Shown here piece after piece: positions 1,605 to 18,618 of a stretch of 31,763 bases of DNA; the stretch's first letter is position 1; each line of letters opens with the position of its first letter. Source of the stretch: a virus; IMG/VR virus record IMGVR_UViG_3300037584_002849, positions 1-31,763 of that record; one strand, 5' to 3'. The position numbers were made by a program, and so were the translations under genes. A model generated the notes under the pieces. The model made no database searches. It saw only the letters and a program-made list of their open reading frames with translations, and was not told the DNA's origin.

Positions 1605-3011
1605 TTACATAAGGTTTGTAACTGAAACTCTTCTGTAGTAACGGTTAGCGTTAACAGTAAGTGTTCCAAGTCCTTGTGTTGTACCTTGTGAGAATGGGTT
1701 CTCAACCATACCATATCTGGTCTTGAATCCAATCTTAGGTTGGAATGTATCCTGACCAACCGCACGAACCATCTGTAGAGGAACGTATGGACAGTAGAAT
1801 AATCCAGCGTCGTAAGGAGAAGTACCTTTGTAACCGATAACATAGTACTGTGTTGCAGCACTGTTAGCAGCGAATGGGTCGATGTAAACTCTATACTTAC
1901 CGTTGATAACACCAGCAAATGTATTTCCTGTGTCGTCTACGTTTAAGTTAGCGTTAAGAGCAGGAGTGTAATCTAATACACCAGCCATTGTTAATGCAGA
2001 AGCAACGTCAGCAGAGCAAAGGATGATGTTACCCTTTCCACGACGAGTTCTTTGTGCAATAGCGTTTGCGTCTCTTTCGATCTGGAATAGAAGTCCTTTG
2101 AACTTCTCAACAGACCATCTACCATTTGAGTCAACATCTAAGTTGAATGTACCAGCAGATGCTACGTTAACCTGAGCACCAGTCTCAGCAGTTTTGTAGA
2201 TTGTTCTGATAACTTCTCTGTTGATTTCAGCAAGAATCTCAGTTGATAGAATGTTTGCTAACTCAGCCTCAGCGTTCAATCCGTGGATTGCCTTAAGGTC
2301 TTGAGCAAGTTCTAAACTGTACTCTGCTTTTAGAGCTCTAGACTTCGCAGTCACGGTTATCTTCTCGATTGAGAAGGCCATTTCGTTGAAGGACTTTCCA
2401 GACTCTCCGAGGTTCTCAGCCTCGTCTGTACGCATACCTTGACCTACATCATATGCAACCTGTTTTGCATTAGATGATGGGTTAAGTGCGCCTGGGTTAG
2501 ATCCTGACTGTGCAGTTGTACCTAAACCAGTTGTAACTGAATCGAATCCAGATGTGTTTCCATTCTGTGAAGTTTGTCCAGAGAATGCTGAATCTGGTTC
2601 GTTGAATAATGCTTCTGTTCCAAGCATGCTGTTGGCATTTGTGCCATCAACAAATCTGGATCTCATTGCGAAAATGAGTCCTGTTGGAGCATTCATTGGC
2701 TGAACACCAGCAAGGTCATATGCGACCAAGTTTGGCATTGCACGTCTAATCAATGAGATTAGAACTGGGTCGAAACCTGCAACAGGGCCAGATGCAGTTG
2801 CGCCAGCAGAGAAACCTGCGTTTGCACCTGTATTTGTACTAACTGTTGGGGCTTCAGAGAGGAATGACTTTTCCTCGCTTAAAAATCTTTCTTGGTTCTC
2901 GAGCAAGACAGCAGTAACCGCTTTACGATGATTGTCCTTGATAGCATCAATTCCATCATGTTCTAAGAGGGGCTTCCACTTCTCTTGCAATTGTTCTGCG
3001 TTGTTGAACAT
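1605..3011 (-). CDS. 23: gp23 major capsid protein
   Basis: 468 residues (T4 gp23 is 521). The N-terminal helical propeptide (FNNAEQLQEKWKPLLEHDG, and NHRKAVTAVLLENQERFLSE) matches the gp23 delta piece. A gp21 processing site is visible as FLSE|A at residues 50-54, so mature capsid protein should begin at A54. Further family landmarks are PNLVAYDLAGVQPMNAPTG, and ALKAEYSLELAQDLKAIHGL followed by AELANILSTEILAEINREV. It forms the hexamers of the prolate head. No gp24-like paralogue for the vertices is seen here. The ATG at 3011 has an AGGT ribosome-binding site with a 9-base spacer. No TATAAATA is visible in the 49-base gap upstream, so it may be co-transcribed with gp22 or use a non-consensus promoter. 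A strong terminator follows. Confidence 0.98.
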   Translation of the reverse strand: MFNNAEQLQEKWKPLLEHDGIDAIKDNHRKAVTAVLLENQERFLSEEKSFLSEAPTVSTNTGANAGFSAGATASGPVAGFDPVLISLIRRAMPNLVAYDLAGVQPMNAPTGLIFAMRSRFVDGTNANSMLGTEALFNEPDSAFSGQTSQNGNTSGFDSVTTGLGTTAQSGSNPGALNPSSNAKQVAYDVGQGMRTDEAENLGESGKSFNEMAFSIEKITVTAKSRALKAEYSLELAQDLKAIHGLNAEAELANILSTEILAEINREVIRTIYKTAETGAQVNVASAGTFNLDVDSNGRWSVEKFKGLLFQIERDANAIAQRTRRGKGNIILCSADVASALTMAGVLDYTPALNANLNVDDTGNTFAGVINGKYRVYIDPFAANSAATQYYVIGYKGTSPYDAGLFYCPYVPLQMVRAVGQDTFQPKIGFKTRYGMVENPFSQGTTQGLGTLTVNANRYYRRVSVTNLM

Positions 3012-3060: not shown

Positions 3061-4122
3061 TCAATTCTTAGTGGCGTGTGATAGTGCCTGCATGTATGCC
3101 GCCATACTACCAGAAACATCTGGAGTTGCAGCTTCTTCGTTTAACACTTCAGACTCACTTCTTTTGGGAGCAGATTTAAAGTAAGACTCTTTAAGAGTTA
3201 CTAACTTCTCCTCATAAGCTTTTTCACTTTCAAACTCAACACCTTCGGCAAGTGAAGCGAGCTTCTCTTTCTGAGTGGTCGATAGACCTTCAGAAACATC
3301 GGAAAGGATTCCATCAGCTGTTGCCTCTGAGAGACTCTTAGTGATAGTGATATTCTTTTCGATCTGCTCGTTGAGTTTTGATTCCATTTCGTCAAGTTTT
3401 TCTACCATATTCTCAACGACATCATATTTATCTTCAGGGATTGATACATAATGTTCTTCAAAAAGACCTCGCATTCCTTCAAGGAATGATTCAGTCATTT
3501 CGGTTCTAAGACCACGCTCTACTTGGAGTGCGTTTTCTTGTAACCACTCATCAGCGACGTATTCTAAGTAAGAATCGACACGTTCGATGAGTTCGTCTTT
3601 CATGCCTTCGACCTCTTCTACGAGCTTTGCTTCGTAGTGAGATTCCATGGCTTCTCTAAGTTCGGTAACTTTGGACTTTAGAGCAGCCTCGAAAATTGTC
3701 TTGGCTTTTTCTCTAAACTCTTCGGAAAGTTCCTGACCACCGAGAAGTGCATTGACATCATCATCGATGTCAACTTCATCAGTGATTTCGGGGAGTTCGA
3801 CAGTTTCTTCTACTGTCTCTTCCTCGGCGACGACTTCCTCTTCTGCAATCTCATCTTCAGCGATCACTTCTTCTTCAGTTTCCACTGCTTCTTTTTGTGA
3901 TTTTGACATAACGCCTTTTACTGATTTAAGATTTGCTGCATAAGAACCTTCACCAGCTGGATCCCTTAATTTATTGGAATCGTCATCTGGTTTGTTGTTT
4001 TCTGGAGTTGGGCCACCGAGATCCTCATAACTCACGCCTGCCATGGTTTGCATGGGCTCAGCGGGTTTAGCACCAGCGGTTACGGCGTTCTCCATTTCTT
4101 GTAAATTTTTCCCACGGGACAT
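3061..4122 (-). CDS. 22: gp22 prohead scaffolding core protein
   Basis: 353 residues, longer than T4 gp22 (269). The composition is that of an assembly scaffold: a Pro/Asp-rich N-terminus, an extremely Glu-rich stretch at about residues 80-122, then long charged helices with heptad-like leucines (about 130-320), and a short C-terminus that could bind the shell. Candidate gp21 cleavage sites of the [LI]xE type are visible, for example SLSE|A at 264-268. In T4 this protein forms the core on which gp23 assembles and is then digested by gp21 to small peptides. It lies directly between protease and capsid genes, as in T4. The start has a GGAG ribosome-binding site 7 bases upstream and a consensus late promoter 36 bases before the ATG. 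The low-complexity acidic part produces a spurious serine-rich open frame on the other strand. Confidence 0.9.
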   Translation of the reverse strand: MSRGKNLQEMENAVTAGAKPAEPMQTMAGVSYEDLGGPTPENNKPDDDSNKLRDPAGEGSYAANLKSVKGVMSKSQKEAVETEEEVIAEDEIAEEEVVAEEETVEETVELPEITDEVDIDDDVNALLGGQELSEEFREKAKTIFEAALKSKVTELREAMESHYEAKLVEEVEGMKDELIERVDSYLEYVADEWLQENALQVERGLRTEMTESFLEGMRGLFEEHYVSIPEDKYDVVENMVEKLDEMESKLNEQIEKNITITKSLSEATADGILSDVSEGLSTTQKEKLASLAEGVEFESEKAYEEKLVTLKESYFKSAPKRSESEVLNEEAATPDVSGSMAAYMQALSHATKN

Positions 4123-4158
4123 TTGAACTCTCCGATTTACCTTTGTATAATCTGTTTT

Positions 4159-4168: not shown

Positions 4169-4819
4169 TTAAAGATTTGCTAAGAAATCTTGAAAGACGC
4201 CCAGTTTCTGTTCGTCTAATTTTCCTTGATCAACTAGTGTGTTGATCTGTTTATATGTTTTTTCGGCCAACCTCTCACGAAGCATGCCTCCATCCCATAC
4301 CCACTCCTTACCTTCCATAATGCCATCTACGAAAGCATCTGGAGCTGAGGGGTCTGCAACGATATCTGCAGCAGTAGCAAGAGTAAAATCTTCTCCTACC
4401 ACACTGTATCCTTCGTTAGTTTTGTTTAAAGATCCTACACCTCTTGATGAAACACCAAGTTTAACACCCTCACCTAATAAATTAGATGCGATCTTACCCA
4501 TTGGAGTACTAAGAATCTTTGCTTTTCCTATAAAGTTATTTCCACTCTCTTTGAGCGAGACAATTTTATGGGATACTCTGTCAAGATTAACAGTCGGGCC
4601 GTCGGGATGACCCAACTCACCAAGAGCTCTGCCTTTCTGAACAAAGTTTTCGTTGTATCTATTAACTTCACGCATTAACGTTTGTTTTGGATACATCCTA
4701 CCATTACGATTTTTCATTTCACTTTGAAGGAATACTCCTTCAATGTACAGATTTTTCTTACCGTTGCGACTTTCAACAATAACTTCAACCTGTTCTATTT
4801 CTTCTGTAATGAGTTTCAT
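4169..4819 (-). CDS. 21: gp21 prohead maturation protease
   Basis: 216 residues, the same size as T4 gp21 (212). It belongs to the herpesvirus-assemblin-like serine protease fold. Landmarks are the N-terminal strand with NLYIEGVFLQSEMKNRNGRM, the catalytic-His motif GELGHP (His71), and the nucleophile motif LGVSSRGVGS (Ser124/Ser125), followed by DIVADPSAPDAFV. It cleaves scaffold, capsid and internal head proteins after glutamate in [LI]xE-type sites and then digests itself. The start is well supported: the ATG overlaps the preceding stop (TAATG) and an AGGAG ribosome-binding site sits 7 bases upstream. Its own candidate sites (for example VFLQSE) are not obviously different from other proheads. 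Confidence 0.95.
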   Translation of the reverse strand: MKLITEEIEQVEVIVESRNGKKNLYIEGVFLQSEMKNRNGRMYPKQTLMREVNRYNENFVQKGRALGELGHPDGPTVNLDRVSHKIVSLKESGNNFIGKAKILSTPMGKIASNLLGEGVKLGVSSRGVGSLNKTNEGYSVVGEDFTLATAADIVADPSAPDAFVDGIMEGKEWVWDGGMLRERLAEKTYKQINTLVDQGKLDEQKLGVFQDFLANL

Positions 4820-5379
4820 TATGCCGCTCCTGTTGTTTGAACTTGTTGTGCAAATAATTGACCACCTGTTGTATGATCAGTCACTGCTGAAACTGTGAGT
4901 TCTCTTCTTGCTGCTGCAGTAGTCGTGACTGCATTATCGGAATTAAGAGCACGACTGTCATGACCTATTGTAAGTTTTGCTCCAAACTGTGCAAAACCAA
5001 TGGTTCTTTGCTCTTGAATTGAAACAACTCTTGCAGTTGTATTGAATCCAGTTACGCCAGTAATACCAGATACTACAACTACATCATTAACTCTGAATGG
5101 ATTTCCCATTCCTTCAGCGAGTGTGATAACTGTATTAGCTCCTTTTGCAATTCCTTCTATTGGAATCGAACTAACTCTTCCTATATTTAAAGTTGCAGAT
5201 CCTCCAGCTGGAACGTAGTAGTCAGCTGTTGTTGCAGGCCCAGTCGTACCTATCGCTACATGTTGTCCAGCACCTTTTGCAACAACTCGTAGAGTATCCG
5301 ATTGAACCGTAAATGCTTGGCCTGCACTTGAATTACTTGTAGCAAAACTAAATCCAGCGCCAACAGGTTGATGTGCCAT
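4819..5379 (-). CDS. Beta-rich virion protein in the gp68 position, function unknown
   Basis: 186 residues, rich in Ala, Thr, Val and Gly, with no predicted membrane segment or coiled coil. The N-terminus (MAHQPVGAGFSFATSNSSAG) and the alternation of short strands (TLRVVAKGAGQHVAIGTTGP, ADYYVPAGGSATLNIG, then PFRVNDVVVVSG) suggest a small beta-barrel or Ig-like structural protein. T4 has the prohead core protein gp68 here, but the sequence and composition do not resemble a core protein. I recall similar proteins at this spot in marine T4-like phages annotated only as structural. Sitting in a TAATG-coupled chain between the core and protease genes argues for a head role, perhaps surface decoration; that is inference. 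An AGGAAG-type ribosome-binding site precedes the ATG. Confidence 0.6.
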   Translation of the reverse strand: MAHQPVGAGFSFATSNSSAGQAFTVQSDTLRVVAKGAGQHVAIGTTGPATTADYYVPAGGSATLNIGRVSSIPIEGIAKGANTVITLAEGMGNPFRVNDVVVVSGITGVTGFNTTARVVSIQEQRTIGFAQFGAKLTIGHDSRALNSDNAVTTTAAARRELTVSAVTDHTTGGQLFAQQVQTTGAA

Positions 5380-5600
5380 TACTCTTCCTCTTCGTATTCT
5401 TCGTCATTATCAAGTTCACCAACTGTTTCTGATTCTGCATCTTCTTCAGTTTCAACATCATAACCCATCATTGCATTGGCAACAGGAGATTTGAGAGAAT
5501 CAACTCTCTCACCAGCCTTTGCGAATAAAGCAGTTTTTATTGAATCACTAATTTCAGATGGAGATTCATCCGCAATTATCAAGTTCATTAATTCATCCAT
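5379..5600 (-). CDS. 67: gp67-like prohead core protein
   Basis: 73 residues. A helical N-terminal half (MDELMNLIIADESPSEISDS, then IKTALFAKAGERVDSLK) is followed by a strongly acidic tail ending in EEYEEEE. T4 gp67 (about 80 residues) has the same plan, a helical start plus an acidic tail, and the same place between portal and protease genes. It is an essential component of the prohead core that helps determine head shape and is processed by gp21. The identification rests on position, size and architecture more than on residue identity. AGGA with a 10-base spacer supports the ATG, and a consensus late promoter lies 26 bases upstream. The stop overlaps the next start (TAATG). Confidence 0.78.
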   Translation of the reverse strand: MDELMNLIIADESPSEISDSIKTALFAKAGERVDSLKSPVANAMMGYDVETEEDAESETVGELDNDEEYEEEE

Positions 5601-5626
5601 TAGATAAAAATCCTATACCTATGTTT

Positions 5627-5634
5627 TATTTATA
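5627..5634 (-). promoter_or_regulatory. Late promoter TATAAATA for the gp67-gp21 group
   Basis: A perfect TATAAATA on the minus strand overlaps the portal stop codon: the TAA stop is itself the central TAA of the promoter (ATA TAA ATA). It is 26 bases before the gp67 ATG. An AGGTA pentamer (5620-5616) follows 6 bases after the motif. Confidence 0.85.
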
Positions 5635-7351
5635 TCTCGCCACCTTTAAGATCTGGCGTGCCAGGAGACTCAGGATCGTCAGTACTAGCTGTATCAATAC
5701 TCTCTTTACCACCCTCTGTTTGAGTTTTACCTAGATTTTGTTTTGATGAACGACTTTTTGAGTCTTGCTCTTGTTGCATCATCATCAATTCTTCTTCAGT
5801 AGGTGGAATAATGCCAGCTGCTCTTTCTTCATCCATGATCGCATTTTCTTGTACGATTTCATCATCAGTTTGACGTAAGATCTTACGACGAATATAATTG
5901 ACAGAATAATATTTACCGATATATGGATCAGCAGTTGCAACTAATCCAAGTCTTTCTTGCATTAATTCAGCATCTTTAAGTTCAGCAAAGTGATTATCAT
6001 ATAAGAAATCATATTGAATATGATCACTCATTTGTTCCCACTCTTCTGGAGTTACAACATTTTTAAGAATTAATTGAGTTTTAAGTATGTCATGGAAAAG
6101 ATTACTAAATCTTTTTCTCATTCTTCCAACAAACTTACTAAACTTAAGTTCATCTCTTAATACTTCTGATGAACGACCTAGACTGAAACTCGCATTATCA
6201 GCCATGCGAGACTCAGGAACATTCAAAGATCTTAAAAGTTTCTTTTGGAAATACTCTACGTCTGTAAGTTCTCCTAAATTTTGTCCGCCAGGCAACGTTG
6301 ATATCTCAGTTCCACGACCACCCTCTCTACGAGGCAACCAGAAATCTTCCATCATTGACATATATTTCTTGTCGTCACGAACTTCACCAGTCGCTGCATC
6401 GTAAGTTAATTTATTACGGTATCTCGACATTACTTCACGAAGATATTGTTCTGCTTTTGCCTTTGGTAAGTTACCTACATCAATGTAGAATATTCTACGT
6501 TCTGGAGCCCTTGATAATCTGTATATCACAAGAGCGTCTTCAATCATACGAAGTTGATTGAGTGATTTAATTGCTTTTTGTAGATATGAAAGAACTGTAT
6601 GTTTATTACGATCTACTAAACCTGATGTGCAGTATGCGATTGCATCTTTGGCAAACTTAACTGCATCCTTCTGCTGACCTGTAACAGCAACAGATCCATA
6701 TTGATTTTTTTGATATGAATTAGGTGTGTATATAAAGTATTCCGTTAAGCCTGGAAATTCAGCATCTTTTGGATTTGCACCATCTAAGCCTGGTCTATTA
6801 TTATTTGCATATTGTATTGCGTTTGCGCCACCTTTTTTCTTCTGTTCTCTAATATATTTTATTTTAAGTGCATCAATATATCTAAGTTCCTTAATTCCTT
6901 CCTCTGGTCTATCTAAATCTATGACTTTATGATAATAAATTCTTCCATCTACATACCAGTTACGAAATATTTCATGTGCTTTTTTATCAAAGTCCAACAT
7001 TTCTTTGATATATTGAAACTCTCCACGAATAATATCTTTAATTTGAGGCCCTACATTTAAATTTTGAAGATCAATTTGGATTGGTGAATCATTTTGATCT
7101 GCAACTATTGCTTCAATTAAAATATCCTCTATCGCAGCATCAACTTCGGGATGCAAAGCCATCTCTCGATACCTACGAATTAAATCGTATTCTGTTTTAA
7201 ATACGCCTTCTACATCTAAATATTGACCATAAAATCCAGACGATAAAAAGTAGTCCGCACCGTCCTCATTATTTTTGGGGACTGGTGAGACTACTGTTTC
7301 CGACGGTTTCTTGTATGAATCGTCAATTGAGAAACCAAAAAGTTGTGCCAT
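5630..7351 (-). CDS. 20: gp20 portal vertex protein
   Basis: 573 residues (T4 gp20 is 524). The gp20 family is recognisable from DLIRRYREMALHPEVDAAIE near residue 58, the wing segment DALVIYRLSRAPERRIFYID, and the stem/tunnel segment STLPGGQNLGELTDVEYFQK followed by LLRSLNVPESRM. The portal is the dodecameric ring at one head vertex. It nucleates prohead assembly, docks the terminase for DNA entry and later joins the neck (gp13/gp14). The C-terminal 60 residues are Gln/Glu/Ser-rich and look disordered. Its late promoter is 25 bases upstream, with a CTATAGGTATAA stretch between promoter and ATG acting as leader and ribosome-binding region. The stop codon forms part of the next late promoter. 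Confidence 0.97.
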   Translation of the reverse strand: MAQLFGFSIDDSYKKPSETVVSPVPKNNEDGADYFLSSGFYGQYLDVEGVFKTEYDLIRRYREMALHPEVDAAIEDILIEAIVADQNDSPIQIDLQNLNVGPQIKDIIRGEFQYIKEMLDFDKKAHEIFRNWYVDGRIYYHKVIDLDRPEEGIKELRYIDALKIKYIREQKKKGGANAIQYANNNRPGLDGANPKDAEFPGLTEYFIYTPNSYQKNQYGSVAVTGQQKDAVKFAKDAIAYCTSGLVDRNKHTVLSYLQKAIKSLNQLRMIEDALVIYRLSRAPERRIFYIDVGNLPKAKAEQYLREVMSRYRNKLTYDAATGEVRDDKKYMSMMEDFWLPRREGGRGTEISTLPGGQNLGELTDVEYFQKKLLRSLNVPESRMADNASFSLGRSSEVLRDELKFSKFVGRMRKRFSNLFHDILKTQLILKNVVTPEEWEQMSDHIQYDFLYDNHFAELKDAELMQERLGLVATADPYIGKYYSVNYIRRKILRQTDDEIVQENAIMDEERAAGIIPPTEEELMMMQQEQDSKSRSSKQNLGKTQTEGGKESIDTASTDDPESPGTPDLKGGEI

Positions 7352-10347: not shown

Positions 10348-10572
10348 CTACCAATCAGGATAAATCTCAACTATTTCTTTTCTCTTTCTTCCTTTTATAA
10401 CTCTTTTAATCGAACACTTTTTACACTCATATGCATATGCTGACGGTACATTTCCTCGATCTTTTCTTGTTTTATAGAAATCATTAATTAATTCTTTTGT
10501 CTCTCCACACATCTTGCATTTTCTTTGCTGAAATAGTAAGTGTTCTAATTCAAACTGATCCTCTATGTTCAT
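10348..10572 (-). CDS. Small zinc-ribbon protein, HNH-like N-terminus, unknown role
   Basis: 74 residues with two Cys pairs, CKMCGETK at about residues 19-26 and ECKKCS at about 49-54. Together they would bind one zinc ion in a zinc ribbon or treble-clef. The pattern KxCxxCGxxKxxxxFYK resembles the zinc part of phage HNH endonucleases, but no His-Asn-His catalytic motif follows. The C-terminus is basic (KGRKRK). The ATG overlaps the gp17 stop (ATGA), so it is translationally coupled to the large terminase. This makes a packaging-related or nuclease-accessory role conceivable. I recall comparable small zinc proteins between gp17 and gp18 in marine T4-like phages, but their function is not known to me. 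Confidence 0.7.
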   Translation of the reverse strand: MNIEDQFELEHLLFQQRKCKMCGETKELINDFYKTRKDRGNVPSAYAYECKKCSIKRVIKGRKRKEIVEIYPDW

Positions 10573-12233
10573 CTATAATTCCACATGTAATCCATATCCA
10601 TACCACCACCTTTATCACCATATTCATCTACATGCCAACGATCACCATCCGCATCTACAAAACTTTCTTCCTCTGTTCCATCTACAATAAAACCAAAGGG
10701 TGACATATCCTGTTCGATCTGATCTCTCTGATCTTCATAAATTCTTTTGCGAACATCTTGATCAGTCAATTCTTTAAAGTAATCTTGTGCTACCAACCAT
10801 GCATATATTACGAGACACATTGCAAGGTCATCATTACATCCCTCTTCCGCTTCAAATGAATTACTTTTTTGTATGAAAGTTGTAAGTTCAGATATGATAT
10901 CATAATCATTGAATATTAACTTTTCATCTTCAATTAAAGTTTTTAGATTAGAACATCCAACTTTTTTCACAGTCTTAGACATCTTTACACCTAACTGTGT
11001 TTTCTTGCCTGAAAATCCTTGTCCAACAATTTGACCAGCACGACCTCTCATTGAACACAGTAATAGATTATCATACTCTAAATCATATTGAATAATACTT
11101 GCAACCTGATCTCCAATATCATTTACCTCACATAGAATAAATGCATTATTATATGCCTTTGCAATATCTACAATAATACTTGGAAACAACATCGGTTTAA
11201 TTTCATTGTTCCGATACTTTCCAATAATTTTATGTGGGAAGGTTGTGATATCTGTAATTACAAATGCAGAGTAATCAATACCAACACCACGAGCTACATC
11301 AACTGTAAGCACATAATCATGATTTTTAATTGGTTCAAAGTAAATATCTAAACCAGCATTCTTCTTAATTGGTTCATCATATACTAATGTTTTTAATTTT
11401 GAGGAACTAATTAAAGTATCAACAGATCCTAGAAACTCACACTCAAACTCAACACGAAACTGTTGTTCTGATGTGTTTGCAATTGTTTGTTCTTTCCAGA
11501 CTTGATCTCTGCCTGGCACTTCTGACCAATGAACTTCTGTTGGAATATATTCATTCTTTCCTCTTTCCGCATCATGCCACATACGGTAAAAATGATTCAT
11601 ACCTCGTGGTGTAGATACGATTATAACTTTTGTTCTTTGACCAGAAGATATAGTAGGATAAACAGAGGCAAAGAATTGATCAGCAATGTGATTCGGGATA
11701 AAAGCGAACTCGTCGAGAAAGATGACATTATAGGAACCGCCTCGGACAGCAGATGCAGACGTAGATGCAGCGAGAATTTTTGATCCATTTTCTAACTCCA
11801 GTGATCCTTTGTTCCAGACAAGAACACCCTGTTGCATCCATTTAGGTAAGTTCTCATATGCAAGTTGTAATCTTCCTAGAAGATCTCGGGCAGTAGAGGC
11901 CTTGTTCGCAAGTATAGCAATATTAACGTTATCATTAAAAACTGCGTAATGTAAGAGATAAGATACAACTGTAGTGGATTTACCCGTCTGCCGAGGCATC
12001 TTACAGATGTTAAAACGGTTTTCATGGAAATTTCGTACTAATTTTTCTTGAAATGGATAAAGGTTAAAATTGACCAAACCCTCATCAAGAGAGACTATTT
12101 GAATATAATTCTTTGCAAAATAAACTGGATCGTCCTTACACTTAATGAATTCCTCAATTTGTTCCTGAGTAAATTCAACTTTGACGTTCGCTTTCTTTAG
12201 ATTGGGATTACCAAGATATACAGTATCAGACAT
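10569..12233 (-). CDS. 17: gp17 terminase large subunit (packaging ATPase and nuclease)
   Basis: 554 residues (T4 gp17 is 610). ATPase domain: Walker A MPRQTGKST (79-87), Walker B IFLDEF with D174 and E175, and coupling motif STPRG (207-211). Nuclease domain of the RNase H fold: VDVARG with D312, CEVND with E369, and NDDLAM with D468/D469. These are the positions equivalent to the three acidic metal ligands of T4 gp17. The protein drives ATP-powered DNA translocation through the portal and cuts the concatemer. The C-terminal 55 residues are acidic. The start at 12233 gives the expected N-terminus but has no visible Shine-Dalgarno sequence; its upstream 18 bases are only A/T. The small subunit gp16 is 6.4 kb away, unlike the adjacent T4 arrangement. 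Confidence 0.98.
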   Translation of the reverse strand: MSDTVYLGNPNLKKANVKVEFTQEQIEEFIKCKDDPVYFAKNYIQIVSLDEGLVNFNLYPFQEKLVRNFHENRFNICKMPRQTGKSTTVVSYLLHYAVFNDNVNIAILANKASTARDLLGRLQLAYENLPKWMQQGVLVWNKGSLELENGSKILAASTSASAVRGGSYNVIFLDEFAFIPNHIADQFFASVYPTISSGQRTKVIIVSTPRGMNHFYRMWHDAERGKNEYIPTEVHWSEVPGRDQVWKEQTIANTSEQQFRVEFECEFLGSVDTLISSSKLKTLVYDEPIKKNAGLDIYFEPIKNHDYVLTVDVARGVGIDYSAFVITDITTFPHKIIGKYRNNEIKPMLFPSIIVDIAKAYNNAFILCEVNDIGDQVASIIQYDLEYDNLLLCSMRGRAGQIVGQGFSGKKTQLGVKMSKTVKKVGCSNLKTLIEDEKLIFNDYDIISELTTFIQKSNSFEAEEGCNDDLAMCLVIYAWLVAQDYFKELTDQDVRKRIYEDQRDQIEQDMSPFGFIVDGTEEESFVDADGDRWHVDEYGDKGGGMDMDYMWNYR

Positions 12234-12251: not shown

Positions 12252-12503
12252 TTAATCTTCATCGTCAGGTTTTTTTGGATTGGAAAATGATCCTCCACCC
12301 ATACCTATATCTAGGGGATTACTTTTGTCCAATCTTCTACTTCTTAATCTAATATTTCTTTCTGCTGTTTTTTTATCTGGTGCATTTGCATATTCAGTAT
12401 CTCTTATTATTTTATGAGCATTACCAAAATCCATCACACCTACTTTTTGTCCAATTTTTTTAACAAATCCTTGTTCTGACATAAATTGTTTGAATGTTTT
12501 CAT
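12252..12503 (-). CDS. Putative internal head protein with T4 IP-like capsid-targeting sequence
   Basis: 83 residues from the ATG at 12503; an in-frame GTG at 12515 would add four residues. The ATG is preferred because it overlaps the stop of the preceding gene (TGATG) and has an AGGAGG ribosome-binding site at 12520-12515 with an 11-base spacer. The N-terminus MKTFKQFMSEQ lines up residue for residue with the start MKTYQEFIAEA shared by T4 internal proteins IPI-IPIII. There gp21 cleaves after Glu10; here Glu10 is followed by Gln. The remainder is basic (RNIRLRSRRLDK) with a Gly/Ser-rich acidic tail ending DDED. From this I infer a protein packaged in the prohead core, trimmed by gp21 and possibly ejected with the DNA. 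No enzymatic motif is seen. Confidence 0.62.
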   Translation of the reverse strand: MKTFKQFMSEQGFVKKIGQKVGVMDFGNAHKIIRDTEYANAPDKKTAERNIRLRSRRLDKSNPLDIGMGGGSFSNPKKPDDED

Positions 12504-15500
12504 CAGCACTTCCACCTCCTTCTTGCTTGTCTTAGTCTGCTGTTAGGATCTTTTGCAGCCTTTGGAAACTTCTTCATCTGCCCTGCACTTCTAGCACAGT
12601 AACTCTTTCTTCTCTTCGCATCCTTAGAACCTTTTTTGACTTTACCAGTCACAGCAGTCTTTAACTTAGAGCCAGGATTACGACGACGATATGCAGCAAC
12701 ACCTTTTGCAGTCATACCAGCACCACTCTTAGTCGATCTCTTGTGTCCTGATTTGACACTCATTCCTTTCATATCATCTTCAATTACATACTCCTCACCC
12801 TGAGTTTGATCAAGTTTTTTCAAGTTAGGATCTTTTTTAGCATCAGCTACTTTTTTATCCGCTGCAGAATCTCTAGTATTTTGTATTGCTTTATTTGTTT
12901 CTTGTCGTTTTATTTCTCTTTCTTTTCTCCTTTCAATAAAATCATTTGCACCCTCACCAACCATTACAGTAGGTTCGCCTGGTTCAAGTTCTTTTGGTAA
13001 GAACGATAAAACCTTAGAGTCGGGATAAACTTTCTGTATTTCTTTTTCTACAGTTTGACGAGTTGGTCTCGAAACAGATGGCACAAACATCTGAATCATG
13101 TAGGTCTTACCTCTCCATGTCAATACAACTTTATATGTGTGACCGTTCTTAACTAAACGAACTTTATCTTCTGAAACTGTTGAAAGTTTTTTTTTAGCCT
13201 CGAAAGATTCTACTTTCGGTAACTTAGGTTCATTTGCTTTTGCTAGTTCTAACTTTTTCTTTGCAACTGCTGCTTCATTTGGATTATCAGATTTTGTTCT
13301 AGCTTCTATCTTCTGAGTTGTAGACTTATGTTTAACTGGATTGATAGTGATATCATCCATAAGACCTTCACTTGTAGTCTTCTTCTTCACACAGTTATTA
13401 TATCTCTTACCAAACATCATCTTAGTTCCTTTCTTCTCATACCCCTTCCAACACTTCTGACCTTCTTTGATTTCAATCATACCAGCAGCTTCAAGTGCTG
13501 AAACTTGCATTGGTGAGAATCCTTCGTTCTTTGACTTGTTACCCCAGTTTGCAGCACCGACTTTACGACATTTCACCAAAGCACCAGATGCATATGCACT
13601 TGGCCACACAGAGTATCTTGACTTGACCTTATGATAACAGGCATCCTTTGAACCACTACCCTTACCTTTCTTATCTTTGGCTTCATTCACATATTCTTCT
13701 TTCTTCATACCCTTTTTACCGCCAGGCACTTTCTTGCCTGCAAATTTTTCAATATTTTTTTCTAATTTTTTTACTGCCTCTGGATGTGATTTGCTAAGAT
13801 CAGCAGTTCCTTTATAACCTTCTTTTACTCCAGCAGCTCTTAGTGTCTTCGCCTGTTTTGTGTGCATTGCAACCGCCTTGTCAAGTTGTGCTGGAATTGC
13901 ATTTGCAGACTTCCCTGCATCCTTCTTGAATACATCTGACTTTCTTAATCTACTTGCCTGACTTTTATGTAATGCAACTGCTTTATCCAATTCTTTTGGA
14001 ATCTTATTGACAGAAGATCCGTAGTGTGATTCCACCACTTTTTTACGATTAAAATAATTCTCTTTCATTTTCTTCTTGGGATCTGTGGAAACATTTGTTG
14101 GTTTTGCTGCACCTGATTTATTCGGTTGATTTGGATCAGCAGCTCTCTTTCTTCTTGCAGCACTATCTCTTTCTTTATCACTCATTGATCTTCTCTTGGA
14201 AGATGATACGCACTTAGGAGTTGATTTTTGGCCAGGTTGTCTTGCACAAGGTTTCCCATCGTACTTACCACCAACTTGAACCCATCCTCTTACTTTGCGT
14301 CCTGACTTGGTAGTTCCACTGGATTTACCAAACCATGCACGAAGGCCTTCTTCGCTTACATTATATTTATAATCATCGTCAATTATCTCTCCTCTTTGCG
14401 GATGAATACGAGGTGTAATCTCTTTTTTAGATTTATTTTTTATTTCTTTTTTGCTTTGGAGTTTATCTTGAGCCGCTCTTACTCTTGCTAACATTTCTTC
14501 CTGACTTTCTTCTTTCATCGCCAACTTAGTTGCGATTGCATACTTCACATTCTTATCACCATATCTTTTCTTCATATCTTTTGTGCTTATCGCATCAGCA
14601 ATCTCATCACGTTTCTTCATTTGTTTCTTGGTCATCTTCTTAGCTTCAGATATTCCAAAATTAAATGCATCCTCTAATTCTTTAGGTATGAACTCAGAAA
14701 CCTTTGCTCTATATTCTCTTCTCTGTAACATTCTTTTTGCTCTTGCACCAGCATCCATCGCCTTCTGAGCTTTCTTTTCTTTCTTGGGTGCAGCGACTGC
14801 TTCTTCAACACCTTTCCTTTTGTTCATTCTATATCTAATTGCCCAATTGTCAGGAATGGTAAAATGTTTTGCTTTAAATTGATTATGGAGAAGAGTCGGT
14901 GATATATCATTACGTTTTGCAATACCTTGCATCAACTGATCTACAGAATCATAAGTAATAGTTTTAATAGTTTTTAAACCATCCTCTAACTCAACCACTG
15001 CATTTGTGATAAGTCCTACGTCTGAATGATTATATAATCCTTCTTTCACTTCTGGTTTATTATCTTTTTCCTTTCTTGGATTTTTTTCTCTGAGTTTTTT
15101 AATCTTTTCTTCAGCTGCATCACTTGGAGATTTTTGATTTTCATAATACTTTTTAATTATATCCTCCCCATTTCCTTCATTCATTCTCTTTGTCTTTTTC
15201 TTCATCGAGTTGATGTACTTTCGATAGACGGCTGCTTCAGAACTTTTACCCATCTCTCTCGCCCTTTGTTCCATAGCAACAGCCGCTTGAATCTTATGAG
15301 CATGTGATCGAGAAGAACTCCTGATTTTTGATACAGATGCTTTAGCTTTAGCCACGTTCTTAAAACCAAGTCCATGAATAGTTCCTTTAGGATCTTCATC
15401 AGTATATAAGTCAGAGTGTTTTTTGGATTTTGCTGGTTGTCCTTTCTTTCTTGGAATACGAGGATTTGATCCCTCATAAACTATCGCTTCACCCATTCCG

Positions 15501-15733
15501 CCACCGCCATTGCCACCACCATTACCACCAGAGCCACCGTTACCATTTCCAGCGCCATTCCCGCCGTTCCCATTTTCGTTAGAACTTCCGTTACCATTTT
15601 TCTTTGTTTCGTTATCGTCCTCTCTTTCTCTCGCAAGATATCCTCTAGCACCAATACGATACCCACGAGGGATCTTCTTGCACTTCTTTTCATCAAAGCA
15701 GTAATATTTGCCTGGCGGACACTTCTTAGCCAT
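12503..15733 (-). CDS. Large basic modular protein (DUF5872/DUF6321-type modules), unknown function
   Basis: 1,076 residues, strongly Lys/Arg-rich, and apparently a chain of short modules rather than one fold. In order: a Cys cluster (CPPGKYYCFDEKKCKK, 5-20); a Gly/Asn low-complexity linker (46-80); SRSHAHKIQAAVAMEQRARE (141-160) with a following helix; a 230-302 segment; a YAIATKLAMKEE segment (398-409); a GWVQVGGKYDGKPCARQ segment (483-499) with basic tail; a duplicated LDKAVALHKSQASRLR-like helix (582-597 and 617-632); KDACYHKVKSRYSVWPSAYA (696-715), typical of DUF5872; CWKGYEKKGTKMMFGKRY (761-778); a beta module HTYKVVLTWRGKTYMIQMFV (865-884); and a C-terminal module with GVAAYRRRNPGSKLKTAV (1011-1028). 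Many modules recur singly in marine phage proteins. It is presumably a virion or DNA-associated protein; the role is unknown. It has its own late promoter. Confidence 0.72.
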   Translation of the reverse strand: MAKKCPPGKYYCFDEKKCKKIPRGYRIGARGYLAREREDDNETKKNGNGSSNENGNGGNGAGNGNGGSGGNGGGNGGGGMGEAIVYEGSNPRIPRKKGQPAKSKKHSDLYTDEDPKGTIHGLGFKNVAKAKASVSKIRSSSRSHAHKIQAAVAMEQRAREMGKSSEAAVYRKYINSMKKKTKRMNEGNGEDIIKKYYENQKSPSDAAEEKIKKLREKNPRKEKDNKPEVKEGLYNHSDVGLITNAVVELEDGLKTIKTITYDSVDQLMQGIAKRNDISPTLLHNQFKAKHFTIPDNWAIRYRMNKRKGVEEAVAAPKKEKKAQKAMDAGARAKRMLQRREYRAKVSEFIPKELEDAFNFGISEAKKMTKKQMKKRDEIADAISTKDMKKRYGDKNVKYAIATKLAMKEESQEEMLARVRAAQDKLQSKKEIKNKSKKEITPRIHPQRGEIIDDDYKYNVSEEGLRAWFGKSSGTTKSGRKVRGWVQVGGKYDGKPCARQPGQKSTPKCVSSSKRRSMSDKERDSAARRKRAADPNQPNKSGAAKPTNVSTDPKKKMKENYFNRKKVVESHYGSSVNKIPKELDKAVALHKSQASRLRKSDVFKKDAGKSANAIPAQLDKAVAMHTKQAKTLRAAGVKEGYKGTADLSKSHPEAVKKLEKNIEKFAGKKVPGGKKGMKKEEYVNEAKDKKGKGSGSKDACYHKVKSRYSVWPSAYASGALVKCRKVGAANWGNKSKNEGFSPMQVSALEAAGMIEIKEGQKCWKGYEKKGTKMMFGKRYNNCVKKKTTSEGLMDDITINPVKHKSTTQKIEARTKSDNPNEAAVAKKKLELAKANEPKLPKVESFEAKKKLSTVSEDKVRLVKNGHTYKVVLTWRGKTYMIQMFVPSVSRPTRQTVEKEIQKVYPDSKVLSFLPKELEPGEPTVMVGEGANDFIERRKEREIKRQETNKAIQNTRDSAADKKVADAKKDPNLKKLDQTQGEEYVIEDDMKGMSVKSGHKRSTKSGAGMTAKGVAAYRRRNPGSKLKTAVTGKVKKGSKDAKRRKSYCARSAGQMKKFPKAAKDPNSRLRQARRRWKC

Positions 15734-15756: not shown

Positions 15757-15764
15757 TATTTATA
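15757..15764 (-). promoter_or_regulatory. Late promoter TATAAATA for the 1,076-residue gene
   Basis: A perfect TATAAATA on the minus strand is built around the TAA stop of the preceding fibre-like gene (GTA TAA ATA). It is 23 bases before the ATG at 15733. Only a weak GAAGA ribosome-binding-like stretch follows. It probably drives the 1,076-residue gene, the internal-protein candidate and gp17. Confidence 0.82.
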
Positions 15765-18618
15765 CTTTTATTACAGTCTTAGATAATTTGAAGACCGTAG
15801 ATGCTGTAGTTGTCGGAGTCACACGAAGTCTTAAATTACCACCACTAATATCAGCATCAAAGGTAGCAAGTATTGAACCTGTACGAATTGTTCCAAATTC
15901 ACTCAAGAAAGCATTCGTTCCGTCATGAACAACATTGATTGTTGTCACATGATATTCACTTCCTCTAGTGACTTGAACTTGGAAAGTTGCAGAACGATTC
16001 ACTGATGCAGATACACTTGCAACAGTGTCTGCACTTGATGATGTTGTTGTCAAAGTGTCACTTGAAAGTGTGATGATGCCTGGATCTCCAAGATCCACAC
16101 CAGCTGATGCAGTAATAATACCAGTTGCAAGGATGTCATTCTGATCTAGAGAAGTGATTGTACCAGCAACAGATAAGTTACCACTGATGATTGCATCAAC
16201 AGCATTGACGTTTGTAACTGTAACGTTGGGTGATCCTGTTAATCCCTGAGCACTAACTGCGAGTGTTGCGTTAGATGCAGTTCCTGTGACATCACCTGTT
16301 AATGCACCGACAAAAGTTGTTGCAGTTGTGACACCTGTTGCAAATATATCTCCATCTGGACTAACGGTAACACCAGTTCCAACAATGATATCGTTTCTAA
16401 ACGTTGATATTCCAGCAACATCTAATATACCTGTTCTTACATTTGCGGTGTTTGCAATACCTGTGAGTGCAGATCCGTCAATTGCTGGTAATGCAGATGG
16501 AAATCTTGCGTCGGGTATTGTTCCTGAACTTAAGTTTGATGCGTTCAGGGAATTGATAATTGAAGATGTAACAAATGCAGCACCGTTTGTAAGTTGATTG
16601 TTATTAGTAGGTATTGTTGGTTTGTTTGTGAGATTATCAAAATCAATATCAATATTTGCAGAACCATTGAAACTTGTTCCAGCAATTGTTCGTGCATTTG
16701 TTAGTATAGTTGCAGTTGCAGCATTACCTGTAATATCATCACTTGCAGTGATAAAACCAGCACCATTAGTGATTGCATTATTGTTTAACGAAATGTTTGA
16801 TGTTCCATCAAAAGATACACCAGCAATTGTTCGTGCATTTGCCAGAGCAGTTGCAGTTGCAGCGTTACCTGTAGTTGACCCCGATGAACCAGAAACATTA
16901 CCTGTTACATTACCTGTTACGTTACCTGTTAATGCACCAACAAAAGTTGTTGCGGTTGTGACACCTGTAAAGAATCCGTCACCATCTTTGCTTATTGTGA
17001 CACCAGCTCCAACGATTAAACCAGATCTTGCAGTAACAAGACCAACAGAATCAATGTTAGTTACATCTTCATAAGTTAGAGTTCCACCAATTGTAACGTT
17101 ACCACTAAATGTTCCAGTGGAAGCAATAACTGAACCAACTGTGATATTTGGTGTTCCTGTTAATCCACCAGATGTTCCTGTTGTATTTTGATTCAGTGTT
17201 GGAACTCTTGCAGCACCAATTGTTCCTGATGAAATATTAGATGCATTTAAGTTGGTTAAACTTGCACCAGATCCATCATTGAGTAGTAAAGTTCCAGCTG
17301 AGTTTGGTAAGATTACAGTTGGATTACCTGAGAACTGAGAGTGAGGTGGTGCTTGTAATCTTAAGTAATGTGCATTATTTGATTCGCAATATAAATCAAT
17401 TCTCGCTGGAGTGCTATCATCACTTCTTAATTTAATTTGATTGTAAAATGAAGCGTTACTTGATCCTGTGATGGTTGTACCAGAAATAGCACCAGTAGCT
17501 GTAAAACTACCTCTTACTGTTCCACCTGAAGGACTATCAATAACATTGGAATTTACCTGAACGGCATTTCCCATATAGCCATGGTTTGTGCATTGATAGT
17601 GCAATACTGTTGGTGTTGTATCAGTGACTGCAATTTCAGTGTACGCACCTGAGCTACCAGCGGTTCCGTTCGTTGTTATGTTAGTCGTATATGAAGTAGC
17701 TTTCGCAGCATCATAATAAAAACGAAGTGGGTGATTACTATTTGAACTATCACTCTGATCAAAACGGTATGTTCTGCCAGGTGTAAGTGTTAAAAATGGT
17801 GATTGAACATTATCTAAGTTATATCCTAAACTACTACCTTGACCATAATATCTGTGTTCTCCATCTATCTTAGTTGCAACTTTAACTGTGATAGTTATTG
17901 TTGATGCGTGAGGTGCAATTAAATGACTGTATCCTGAGAACTGTGCAGCAGTGATAATACCTGATGTATTCAGACTATCCTGAGTTCCTATACCAGCAGA
18001 TCCACCGATAAATTTACCACTTGACTCATCATATTTTAGGAACTTACCATCAACCTTTGCAGTATCTTCATCAACATCATCAAGTTTTGAAAGATTAACT
18101 TCACCAGATCCTGGCCCTTGTGCAAGAACACGATTCAGAATATTCTTAAGTTTTCTTATCTCTGACTGTACATCAGTATCTACATTTTCAGTTTCTTCTT
18201 TGACTGTTGTATCTTCAATAAACTTGATTGCCTTTGTGATGGCACTCTCGTCCTCTTTTATTTCCTCAACTGCTGGTTTTTTTGGTTTCTTCTTACTTCC
18301 AATTTCTTTTTTGATTTCTTCATAGTCATCTTCTTCTTCCAAAGATTCAATATCAAAATCTTCTGGAACTCCAACTACAACTTCTTCAGGTTTTTTAACA
18401 TCTTCTAGAACAACATCAAGTTGTTCGATAAATTTTTCCCCTTTCTCTTTTTGTTCTTTAACTGCTACCTTTGCCTTTTTAATTCCAGAAAAAACAGTTG
18501 AAGCTAAGACATCGAGATTGATGTCAGCCTCTTTGAGAAGGTTGTTAAACTCCTCTTCTTTTTCTTTCTTGGCCTCTCCGAGAAGACTAAAAAATTCTGT
18601 GAGTTCTGGTGATTTCAT
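15760..18618 (-). CDS. Fibre-like virion protein with cupredoxin-like domain and beta-repeat shaft
   Basis: 952 residues. The N-terminal ~165 residues are charged and helical (starting ELTEFFSLLGEAKKEK), probably an anchor. A compact beta domain at about 238-356 reads YRFDQSDSSNSNHPLRFYYD, then HYQCTNHGYMG. Its His296, Cys343, His346 and Met349 reproduce the type 1 copper ligand pattern, with the amicyanin-type C-x2-H-x2-M loop. Residues 360-840 are Gly/Thr/Ala/Asn-rich repeats typical of trimeric fibre shafts: two copies of TGVTTATTFVGALTG and two of NARTIAGxSF. The C-terminal ~90 residues (RSATFQVQVTRGSEYHVTT, DADISGGNLRLRVTPT) form a conserved tip-like domain of marine phage structural proteins. 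The start overlaps the gp16 stop (ATGA). I infer a head or tail fibre or whisker; the receptor and copper content are unproven. Confidence 0.75.
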   Translation of the reverse strand: MKSPELTEFFSLLGEAKKEKEEEFNNLLKEADINLDVLASTVFSGIKKAKVAVKEQKEKGEKFIEQLDVVLEDVKKPEEVVVGVPEDFDIESLEEEDDYEEIKKEIGSKKKPKKPAVEEIKEDESAITKAIKFIEDTTVKEETENVDTDVQSEIRKLKNILNRVLAQGPGSGEVNLSKLDDVDEDTAKVDGKFLKYDESSGKFIGGSAGIGTQDSLNTSGIITAAQFSGYSHLIAPHASTITITVKVATKIDGEHRYYGQGSSLGYNLDNVQSPFLTLTPGRTYRFDQSDSSNSNHPLRFYYDAAKATSYTTNITTNGTAGSSGAYTEIAVTDTTPTVLHYQCTNHGYMGNAVQVNSNVIDSPSGGTVRGSFTATGAISGTTITGSSNASFYNQIKLRSDDSTPARIDLYCESNNAHYLRLQAPPHSQFSGNPTVILPNSAGTLLLNDGSGASLTNLNASNISSGTIGAARVPTLNQNTTGTSGGLTGTPNITVGSVIASTGTFSGNVTIGGTLTYEDVTNIDSVGLVTARSGLIVGAGVTISKDGDGFFTGVTTATTFVGALTGNVTGNVTGNVSGSSGSTTGNAATATALANARTIAGVSFDGTSNISLNNNAITNGAGFITASDDITGNAATATILTNARTIAGTSFNGSANIDIDFDNLTNKPTIPTNNNQLTNGAAFVTSSIINSLNASNLSSGTIPDARFPSALPAIDGSALTGIANTANVRTGILDVAGISTFRNDIIVGTGVTVSPDGDIFATGVTTATTFVGALTGDVTGTASNATLAVSAQGLTGSPNVTVTNVNAVDAIISGNLSVAGTITSLDQNDILATGIITASAGVDLGDPGIITLSSDTLTTTSSSADTVASVSASVNRSATFQVQVTRGSEYHVTTINVVHDGTNAFLSEFGTIRTGSILATFDADISGGNLRLRVTPTTTASTVFKLSKTVIKV
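16282..16383 (-). repeat. Fibre shaft repeat A, copy 2
   Basis: Encodes residues 746-779 of the fibre-like protein (VGTGVTVSPDGDIFATGVTT, then ATTFVGALTGDVTG). It is the second copy of a 34-residue unit and differs at only a handful of positions from the copy at 16912-17013. Confidence 0.8.
16651..16728 (-). repeat. Fibre shaft repeat B, copy 2
   Basis: Encodes residues 631-656 of the fibre-like protein (GNAATATILTNARTIAG, then TSFNGSANI). It is nearly the same as the unit at 16792-16869; the pair is a tandem-type duplication 47 residues apart. Confidence 0.8.
16792..16869 (-). repeat. Fibre shaft repeat B, copy 1
   Basis: Encodes residues 584-609 of the fibre-like protein (GNAATATALANARTIAG, then VSFDGTSNI). 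It is paired with 16651-16728. The NARTIAGxSFDGxxNI signature is common in phage fibres. Confidence 0.8.
16912..17013 (-). repeat. Fibre shaft repeat A, copy 1
   Basis: Encodes residues 536-569 (VGAGVTISKDGDGFFTGVTT, then ATTFVGALTGNVTG). It is immediately followed by two further GNVTG/GNVSG pentapeptides, a short internal slippage-type repeat. Confidence 0.8.

Follow-up and report, generated by a model that had tools for sequence, protein, structure and literature searches.

A Putative T4-Type Internal Head Protein Encoded Beside the Terminase Gene of a T4-Like Phage, and Its N-Terminal Tag on Unrelated Marine Phage Proteins

Introduction

What is the role of an 83-residue basic protein encoded directly before the large terminase gene of a marine T4-like phage, and does its N-terminus send it into the head? 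The question is raised by IMG/VR record IMGVR_UViG_3300037584_002849, of which a stretch of 31,763 nucleotides (the window) was analysed here. An earlier note, made from the letters alone, had read the first residues of this protein as a capsid-targeting sequence (CTS) of the type that heads the internal proteins of phage T4. Targeting by the T4 CTS depends on residues 4 and 7, and its cutting on residues 8 and 10 (PMC9026906). T4 is already known to use capsid targeting, and it has been proposed that T4-like phages can load a variety of proteins in this way (PMC9026906). A literature search that covered few subscription journals, and which does not prove novelty, found no paper reporting a CTS tag in marine T4-like phages. 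The virion cargo of marine phages consists mostly of "hypothetical proteins" from mass spectrometry (MS). A short, testable N-terminal tag would explain the presence of odd enzymes (SAM hydrolase, NMNAT) in virions.

Results

The small ORF and its start

The features of the locus are listed in Table 1. The gene proposed in the earlier note is real: the small ORF is encoded on the minus strand, with a 1076-aa ORF on one side and gp17 on the other. MKTFKQF is also the start of all close relatives. The start was moved from the GTG at position 12,515 to the ATG at 12,503, because the former lies within a strong Shine-Dalgarno sequence and the latter overlaps the stop codon of the ORF upstream. At the junction of the two ORFs, which reads AAGGAGGTGGAAGTGCTGATGAAAAC on the coding strand, the TGA of the 1076-aa ORF shares one base with this ATG. 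The overlap suggests that the two ORFs are probably translationally coupled. The product has a computed pI of 9.7, and 73 of its 83 residues remain after Glu10.

Table 1. Features of the locus and of the head gene region (window positions).
Feature	Coordinates	Strand	Evidence or remark
Small CTS-tagged ORF, 83 aa, ATG start	12252..12503	minus	Start common to relatives; Shine-Dalgarno and stop/start overlap
Codons 1-10, MKTFKQFMSE, putative capsid-targeting sequence, predicted cut after Glu10	12474..12503	minus	T4 CTS determinants (PMC9026906), T4 internal protein starts, motif statistics
Predicted mature body, 73 aa, basic	12255..12473	minus	Family comparison; AlphaFold2
Shine-Dalgarno AAGGAGG of the small ORF, within the end of the upstream ORF	12515..12521	minus	Sequence read
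1076-aa basic modular ORF, C-terminal DUF6321, phrog_727	12503..15733	minus	Pfam/PHROGs; 11 gp21-type sites; relatives in virions
gp17 large terminase, directly downstream of the small ORF	10569..12233	minus	Annotation
gp21 prohead protease (Peptidase_S77), enzyme expected to cut the tag	4169..4819	minus	PF03420 E 2.3e-37; phrog_207
gp22 scaffold, expected core partner, 8 gp21-type sites	3061..4122	minus	PF25623 E 1.2e-78
gp23 major capsid protein, site FLSE53/A54 (slash, cut)	1605..3011	minus	Sequence read

Correspondence with the T4 capsid-targeting sequence

The small ORF carries all four T4 CTS determinants, namely an aromatic residue at position 4, Phe7, a hydrophobic residue at position 8, and Glu10. 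Its gp21-type site, hydrophobic-x-Glu, is M8-S9-E10, with an atypical Gln at P1'. The earlier note had given MKTYQEFIAEA as the start of IPI, IPII and IPIII alike. Reading of the T4 record upheld this for IPII and IPIII (MKTYQEFIAE/A); IPI starts instead with MKTFKEFTSTTTPVSTITE/A. The match is thereby closer than with IPII and IPIII, as MKTFKEF of IPI and MKTFKQF of the small ORF are separated by a single conservative change. Judged from the PF03420 and PF25623 matches in the window, the phage encodes a gp21 protease and a gp22 scaffold of its own, and the FLSE/A site that the note had seen in gp23 is present.

The tag across viral contigs

The 2.9 million viral contigs of IMG/VR were scanned for MKTFxQFxxE[AGVDE], which was found in at least 120 stretches (a lower bound), versus 4 for MKFQxTFxxE[AGVDE], a control made of the same codons in permuted order. 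The small ORF itself falls outside the exact pattern because of its Gln at position 11. In a second scan requiring only MKTFKQF, 114 distinct proteins were obtained, 91% of them with a Glu at positions 9-11; four of the 114 show E10-Q11 as in the small ORF. Among the matches listed, 218 distinct tagged proteins formed 101 body clusters, between which no similarity was detected. MKTFKQF was encoded by 58 different 21-mers, which points to selection on the protein and not on the DNA and, together with the 101 unrelated bodies, to a protein-level tag carried by many unrelated proteins.

The position of the Glu follows a rule. In 78 body clusters chosen on MKTFKQF alone, with the statistics weighted by cluster, a hydrophobic residue 8 goes with Glu at position 10; where residue 8 is not hydrophobic, the Glu is at position 9 and Phe7 takes the P3 place (P 9e-7); Glu10 alone, with no hydrophobic residue 8, was seen in only about 2 of the 78. 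The hydrophobic-x-Glu rule is satisfied in 69/78 MKTFKQF clusters versus 13/34 clusters of MKTIKQI starts (P 1e-7), a conservative control as it includes some tag-like starts. Conservation among the tagged proteins ends at about residue 11, with no conserved position beyond. Judged from these sequence statistics, the MKTFKQF start looks like a protease-processed tag. Basicity was dropped as evidence for the tag, the median pI being 9.5 in control ORFs versus 9.9 in tagged ones.

Location of the tagged ORFs and exchange in one slot

T4-type genes 13-17 were present on 70 of 219 tagged loci, among the matches listed, versus 2 of 120 MKTIKQI control loci (P 3e-13), while replication genes did not differ in frequency between the tagged loci (again among the matches listed) and the control loci. 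Six unrelated tagged bodies start on or beside the stop codon of a DUF6321-type ORF ending in W[KN]C, as in the window. In the same slot, S-SCSM1 encodes MKTFKQFMSES, its first ten residues identical to those of the small ORF, in front of an unrelated body. This other body, phrog_1742, was found in 135 phage records, nearly all of cyanophages, with starts such as MKSYKQFMSES. T4-type internal protein genes show just this pattern, an unchanging tag in front of bodies that are swapped within one slot.

The body family

The body of the small protein has relatives in different phage groups, at 34-61% identity. The identical protein is present in two marine contigs and one close relative occupies the same slot; in marine contigs of a second T4-like group, shorter forms of 56-63 aa are flanked by gp13 and gp14. 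When the body was searched as a single-sequence query from which the tag had been removed, seven of seven T4-like neighbourhoods had a tagged copy and three contigs an untagged one. In the latter (L407, positions 3464-4153, L408 and L409) the body forms the C-terminus of a longer protein, and no T4 core genes were detectable. The only annotated one, L407, encodes a T7-type head-tail connector and a relative of the T7 scaffold, with a DUF6321 ORF directly after the body protein. From this distribution, the tag therefore appears to go with head assembly of the T4 type; the body accompanies DUF6321 in the head gene clusters of two types of phage.

No homologue of the body was found in the 50,697 records of phage isolates, the small ORF had no Pfam match, and a profile of the body family had no sequence match in PDB. 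In PHROGs the only match was a weak one (phrog_37584, E 0.035). AlphaFold2 predicted, at low confidence (mean pLDDT 65), a loose two-helix hairpin (residues 23-40 and 44-60) with a loose tail.

Tagged proteins in purified virions

In cyanophage S-CREM2, 52 of 219 proteins were detected in CsCl-purified virions (PMC10665884 Table 3). Scanning the ORF starts of its whole genome for [MVL][KRQ]x[FYLW]xxFx(x)E yielded five genes, and 5/5 are among the MS-detected virion proteins (PMC10665884), with a P value of 6e-4 which is indicative, because the pattern was fixed after some S-CREM2 starts had been seen; leaving out the MQ start gives 4/4 (P 0.003, to be read likewise). The five are a SAM hydrolase (MKDFDSFLEE), a kinase (VKRFDAFLTE), a cytidylyltransferase (MKNFSSFLTEA) and two proteins of unknown function (MKDLHSFLTEQ and MQTFSMFFSE). 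Since MKDLHSFLTEQ (SFLTE/Q) is in virions, a Gln after the Glu, as in the small ORF, does occur in a virion protein. S-SCSM1 has two tagged starts and one of the two proteins was detected by MS: the NMNAT (MKSFLQFLKEA) was, and gp30, the nearest tagged protein of the same slot, was missing from the detections (PMC9602691). According to its authors, carry-over is possible for such enzymes (PMC9602691). S-CREM1 was left out of this comparison, as its record has no virion-protein flags.

The earlier note had counted the same motif on clearly non-virion proteins as evidence against its reading. The tag does head enzymes (SAM lyase, NMNAT-like, kinase), yet those of S-CREM2 and S-SCSM1 were detected in purified virions. 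Pfam families among the tagged bodies include S-AdoMet lyase, glucosaminidase, lytic transglycosylase, GNAT acetyltransferase, cytidylyltransferase and ADP-ribosyltransferase; SAM hydrolase and NMNAT are the odd enzymes seen in cyanophage virions. CTS-tagged S-AdoMet lyases/hydrolases (contigs L093, 7160-7690, and L152, 1921-2421, and S-CREM2 gp6) are possible packaged anti-restriction enzymes.

Some further observations concern the tagged set. In contig L173 a 424-aa ORF (4567-5838) starts with MKTFKQFLESKG and looks like the one Phage_capsid (HK97-type) match of the set, so the motif may also head some capsid proteins. A tag-like motif also occurs near the C-terminus of a handful of proteins: S-CREM2 gp12 (OR473000 7704..10313, EPKTFRDFLN), S-SCSM1 gp93 (MK867354 91626..91835, KKRTFKEFLEYIE), and ORFs of contigs L005 (11680-12261, QKTFTDFILSIPLQE) and L007 (4370-4870, SITFKDYLNKL). 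S-CREM2 gp12 and S-SCSM1 gp93 were both MS-detected in virions. These few cases are suggestive of a C-terminal form of the tag, with TFxxFL close to the end of the protein.

The upstream modular ORF

Several stretches of the 1076-aa ORF (89-175, 244-297, 410-573, 687-740, 696-927 and 1006-1076) match proteins that are tagged in other phages. It contains 11 hydrophobic-x-Glu-[Ala/Gly/Ser] sites versus 3.3 in shuffled copies, with fewer than 11 in each of 2000 shuffles; in the same comparison, the Asp, Lys and Gln versions of the site were not enriched. No tag was recognised at its start. Two relatives, S-SCSM1_29 and S-CREM2 gp137, are MS-detected virion proteins. The 1076-aa ORF is a candidate head-cargo polyprotein that gp21 may cut. 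In contig L082 a tagged protein (5547-6194) is fused to one module of this ORF and contains a stretch, DKLDAAFQKHDTGYHYSK, which we take to resemble a phospholipase A2 active site. On the other side of the 1076-aa ORF, a fibre-like 952-aa ORF (15760..18618), which matches PHROGs tail fibre families, starts with MKSPELTEFFSLLGEAKKEKEEEF and has a gp21-type site, LLGE/A, near its N-terminus.

Discussion

Role of the small protein

We propose that the small ORF encodes an internal head protein of the T4 type, a reading to which we assign a probability of about 0.84. In this model, MKTFKQFMSE would bind the small protein into the prohead core formed by the gp22 scaffold, and the gp21 of the phage would cut after Glu10. 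The resulting basic protein of 73 residues would stay inside the head with the DNA, together with which it would probably be ejected. The claim of the earlier note, a T4-type CTS with a gp21-processing site on a small basic protein, is well supported: the tag is found on unrelated bodies, the register of the cleavage site is kept, the tagged genes lie near genes 13-17, and tagged proteins are present in published virion proteomes.

That the N-terminal match might be due to chance, or to a generic helical start of phage ORFs, was considered, as the motif is short and some MKTIKQI-type starts are similar. This explanation is very improbable and largely refuted by the excess over the permuted control (at least 120 versus 4), the 101 unrelated bodies, the association with gp13-17 and the virion proteomes. 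Clusters of tagged ORFs lie at the neck genes gp13-gp15 and not only at the terminase genes, and the motif could in principle direct proteins to the neck, tail or baseplate instead of the capsid core. We hold this to be improbable, given the match to the experimentally mapped determinants of the T4 CTS, the gp21-type site in conserved register and the many soluble enzymes among the cargo.

The other alternatives accept internal packaging and differ on the body. A counter-defence effector of the IPI* type, targeted by the CTS and then ejected, is doubtful. T4 IPI is a restriction inhibitor (PMC9026906), and the S-AdoMet lyases among tagged relatives elsewhere are plausible anti-restriction cargo; the body of the small ORF, however, matches no known inhibitor and no Pfam or PDB family, and it is conserved across phage groups and keeps to head-gene slots, also in T7-like contigs. 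The suggestion in the earlier note of a rapidly diverging defence inhibitor is not supported: the mature part keeps 34-61% identity across phage groups and a constant place beside neck/terminase genes or DUF6321, and it also occurs untagged in contigs devoid of T4 core genes, of which one encodes a connector and a scaffold of the T7 type. The data on the body, which is kept with DUF6321 in head clusters of two phage types, speak more for a conserved function within the head, in association with the DNA or the core, than for an inhibitor of that kind. On the same CTS reading, the protein could also be an assembly-core component comparable to gp67/gp68 or IPIII, which gives the head its shape and has no further function once packaging is over. 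The conserved body, the fixed slot and, in the T7-like contig, the adjoining scaffold gene would agree with this. It is nevertheless rather unlikely: gp22 and, near gp20/gp21, small core-like genes are already present in the window, and a tag that is cut off from a retained body fits cargo better. On the sequence data we favour a packaged, trimmed and DNA-associated internal protein, possibly ejected. For the body, we give even odds to a DNA-associated or core-filling function exerted with the upstream DUF6321 modular protein, and rank it above host takeover or counter-defence, which we consider a tentative option.

Significance for marine phages

We lean slightly towards the broader view that marine T4-like phages load a large and exchangeable protein arsenal into the head by one CTS tag, comprising S-AdoMet lyases, NMNAT-like enzymes, acetyltransferases, glucosaminidases, ADP-ribosyltransferase-like proteins and many unknowns. 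Some of these proteins would be made within modular polyproteins, of which the 1076-aa ORF is an example, to be cut by gp21 into pieces which are singly tagged elsewhere, and the tag would predict virion cargo from the sequence alone. As roughly a hundred unrelated proteins of marine phages bear this tag, and some of these have been detected in purified virions, it offers a practical route to listing the cargo carried into hosts. The tag would allow cargo prediction in uncultured phages and would extend T4 capsid targeting beyond coliphages, and the question of what marine T4-like phages inject besides DNA becomes directly testable.

Comparison with known systems

The packaged enzymes of S-CREM2 and S-SCSM1 (SAM hydrolase, NMNAT/cytidylyltransferase, kinase) bear the same type of tag as the small ORF and were detected in purified virions; they differ from it in being large enzymes. 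In the parts of the two papers available, they are presented without a link to a targeting tag. The phrog_1742 proteins (S-SCSM1 gp30 and Sf-CH5 gp75, annotated as "hypothetical protein") share with the small ORF the slot beside a DUF6321 modular ORF and the terminase, and an N-terminus of the same type, MK[ST][FY]xQF[ML]SES. Their body is unrelated, although one module resembles, by eye, a stretch within the modular ORF, and it is represented in those 135 phage records whereas the body of the small ORF has no match in phage isolates.

With respect to T4 itself, the body gives no BLASTP alignment with IPII and is without any PDB match, P1' is Gln where IPII and IPIII have Ala, and the locus, at gp17 and behind a DUF6321 modular ORF, differs from those of the T4 internal proteins. 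The body family is conserved and not hypervariable, unlike T4 internal proteins. The mature regions of CTS proteins are divergent, as a review of the CTS stresses (PMC9026906), so that homology of the body does not define the group. The small ORF has in common with IPI, IPII, IPIII and Alt an N-terminal tag of ten residues, which is cut by gp21 in T4, with an aromatic residue 4, Phe7, a hydrophobic residue 8 and Glu10. As for the T4 internal proteins, it is a small basic protein of a phage possessing gp21 and gp22, and swappable bodies stand behind a constant tag.
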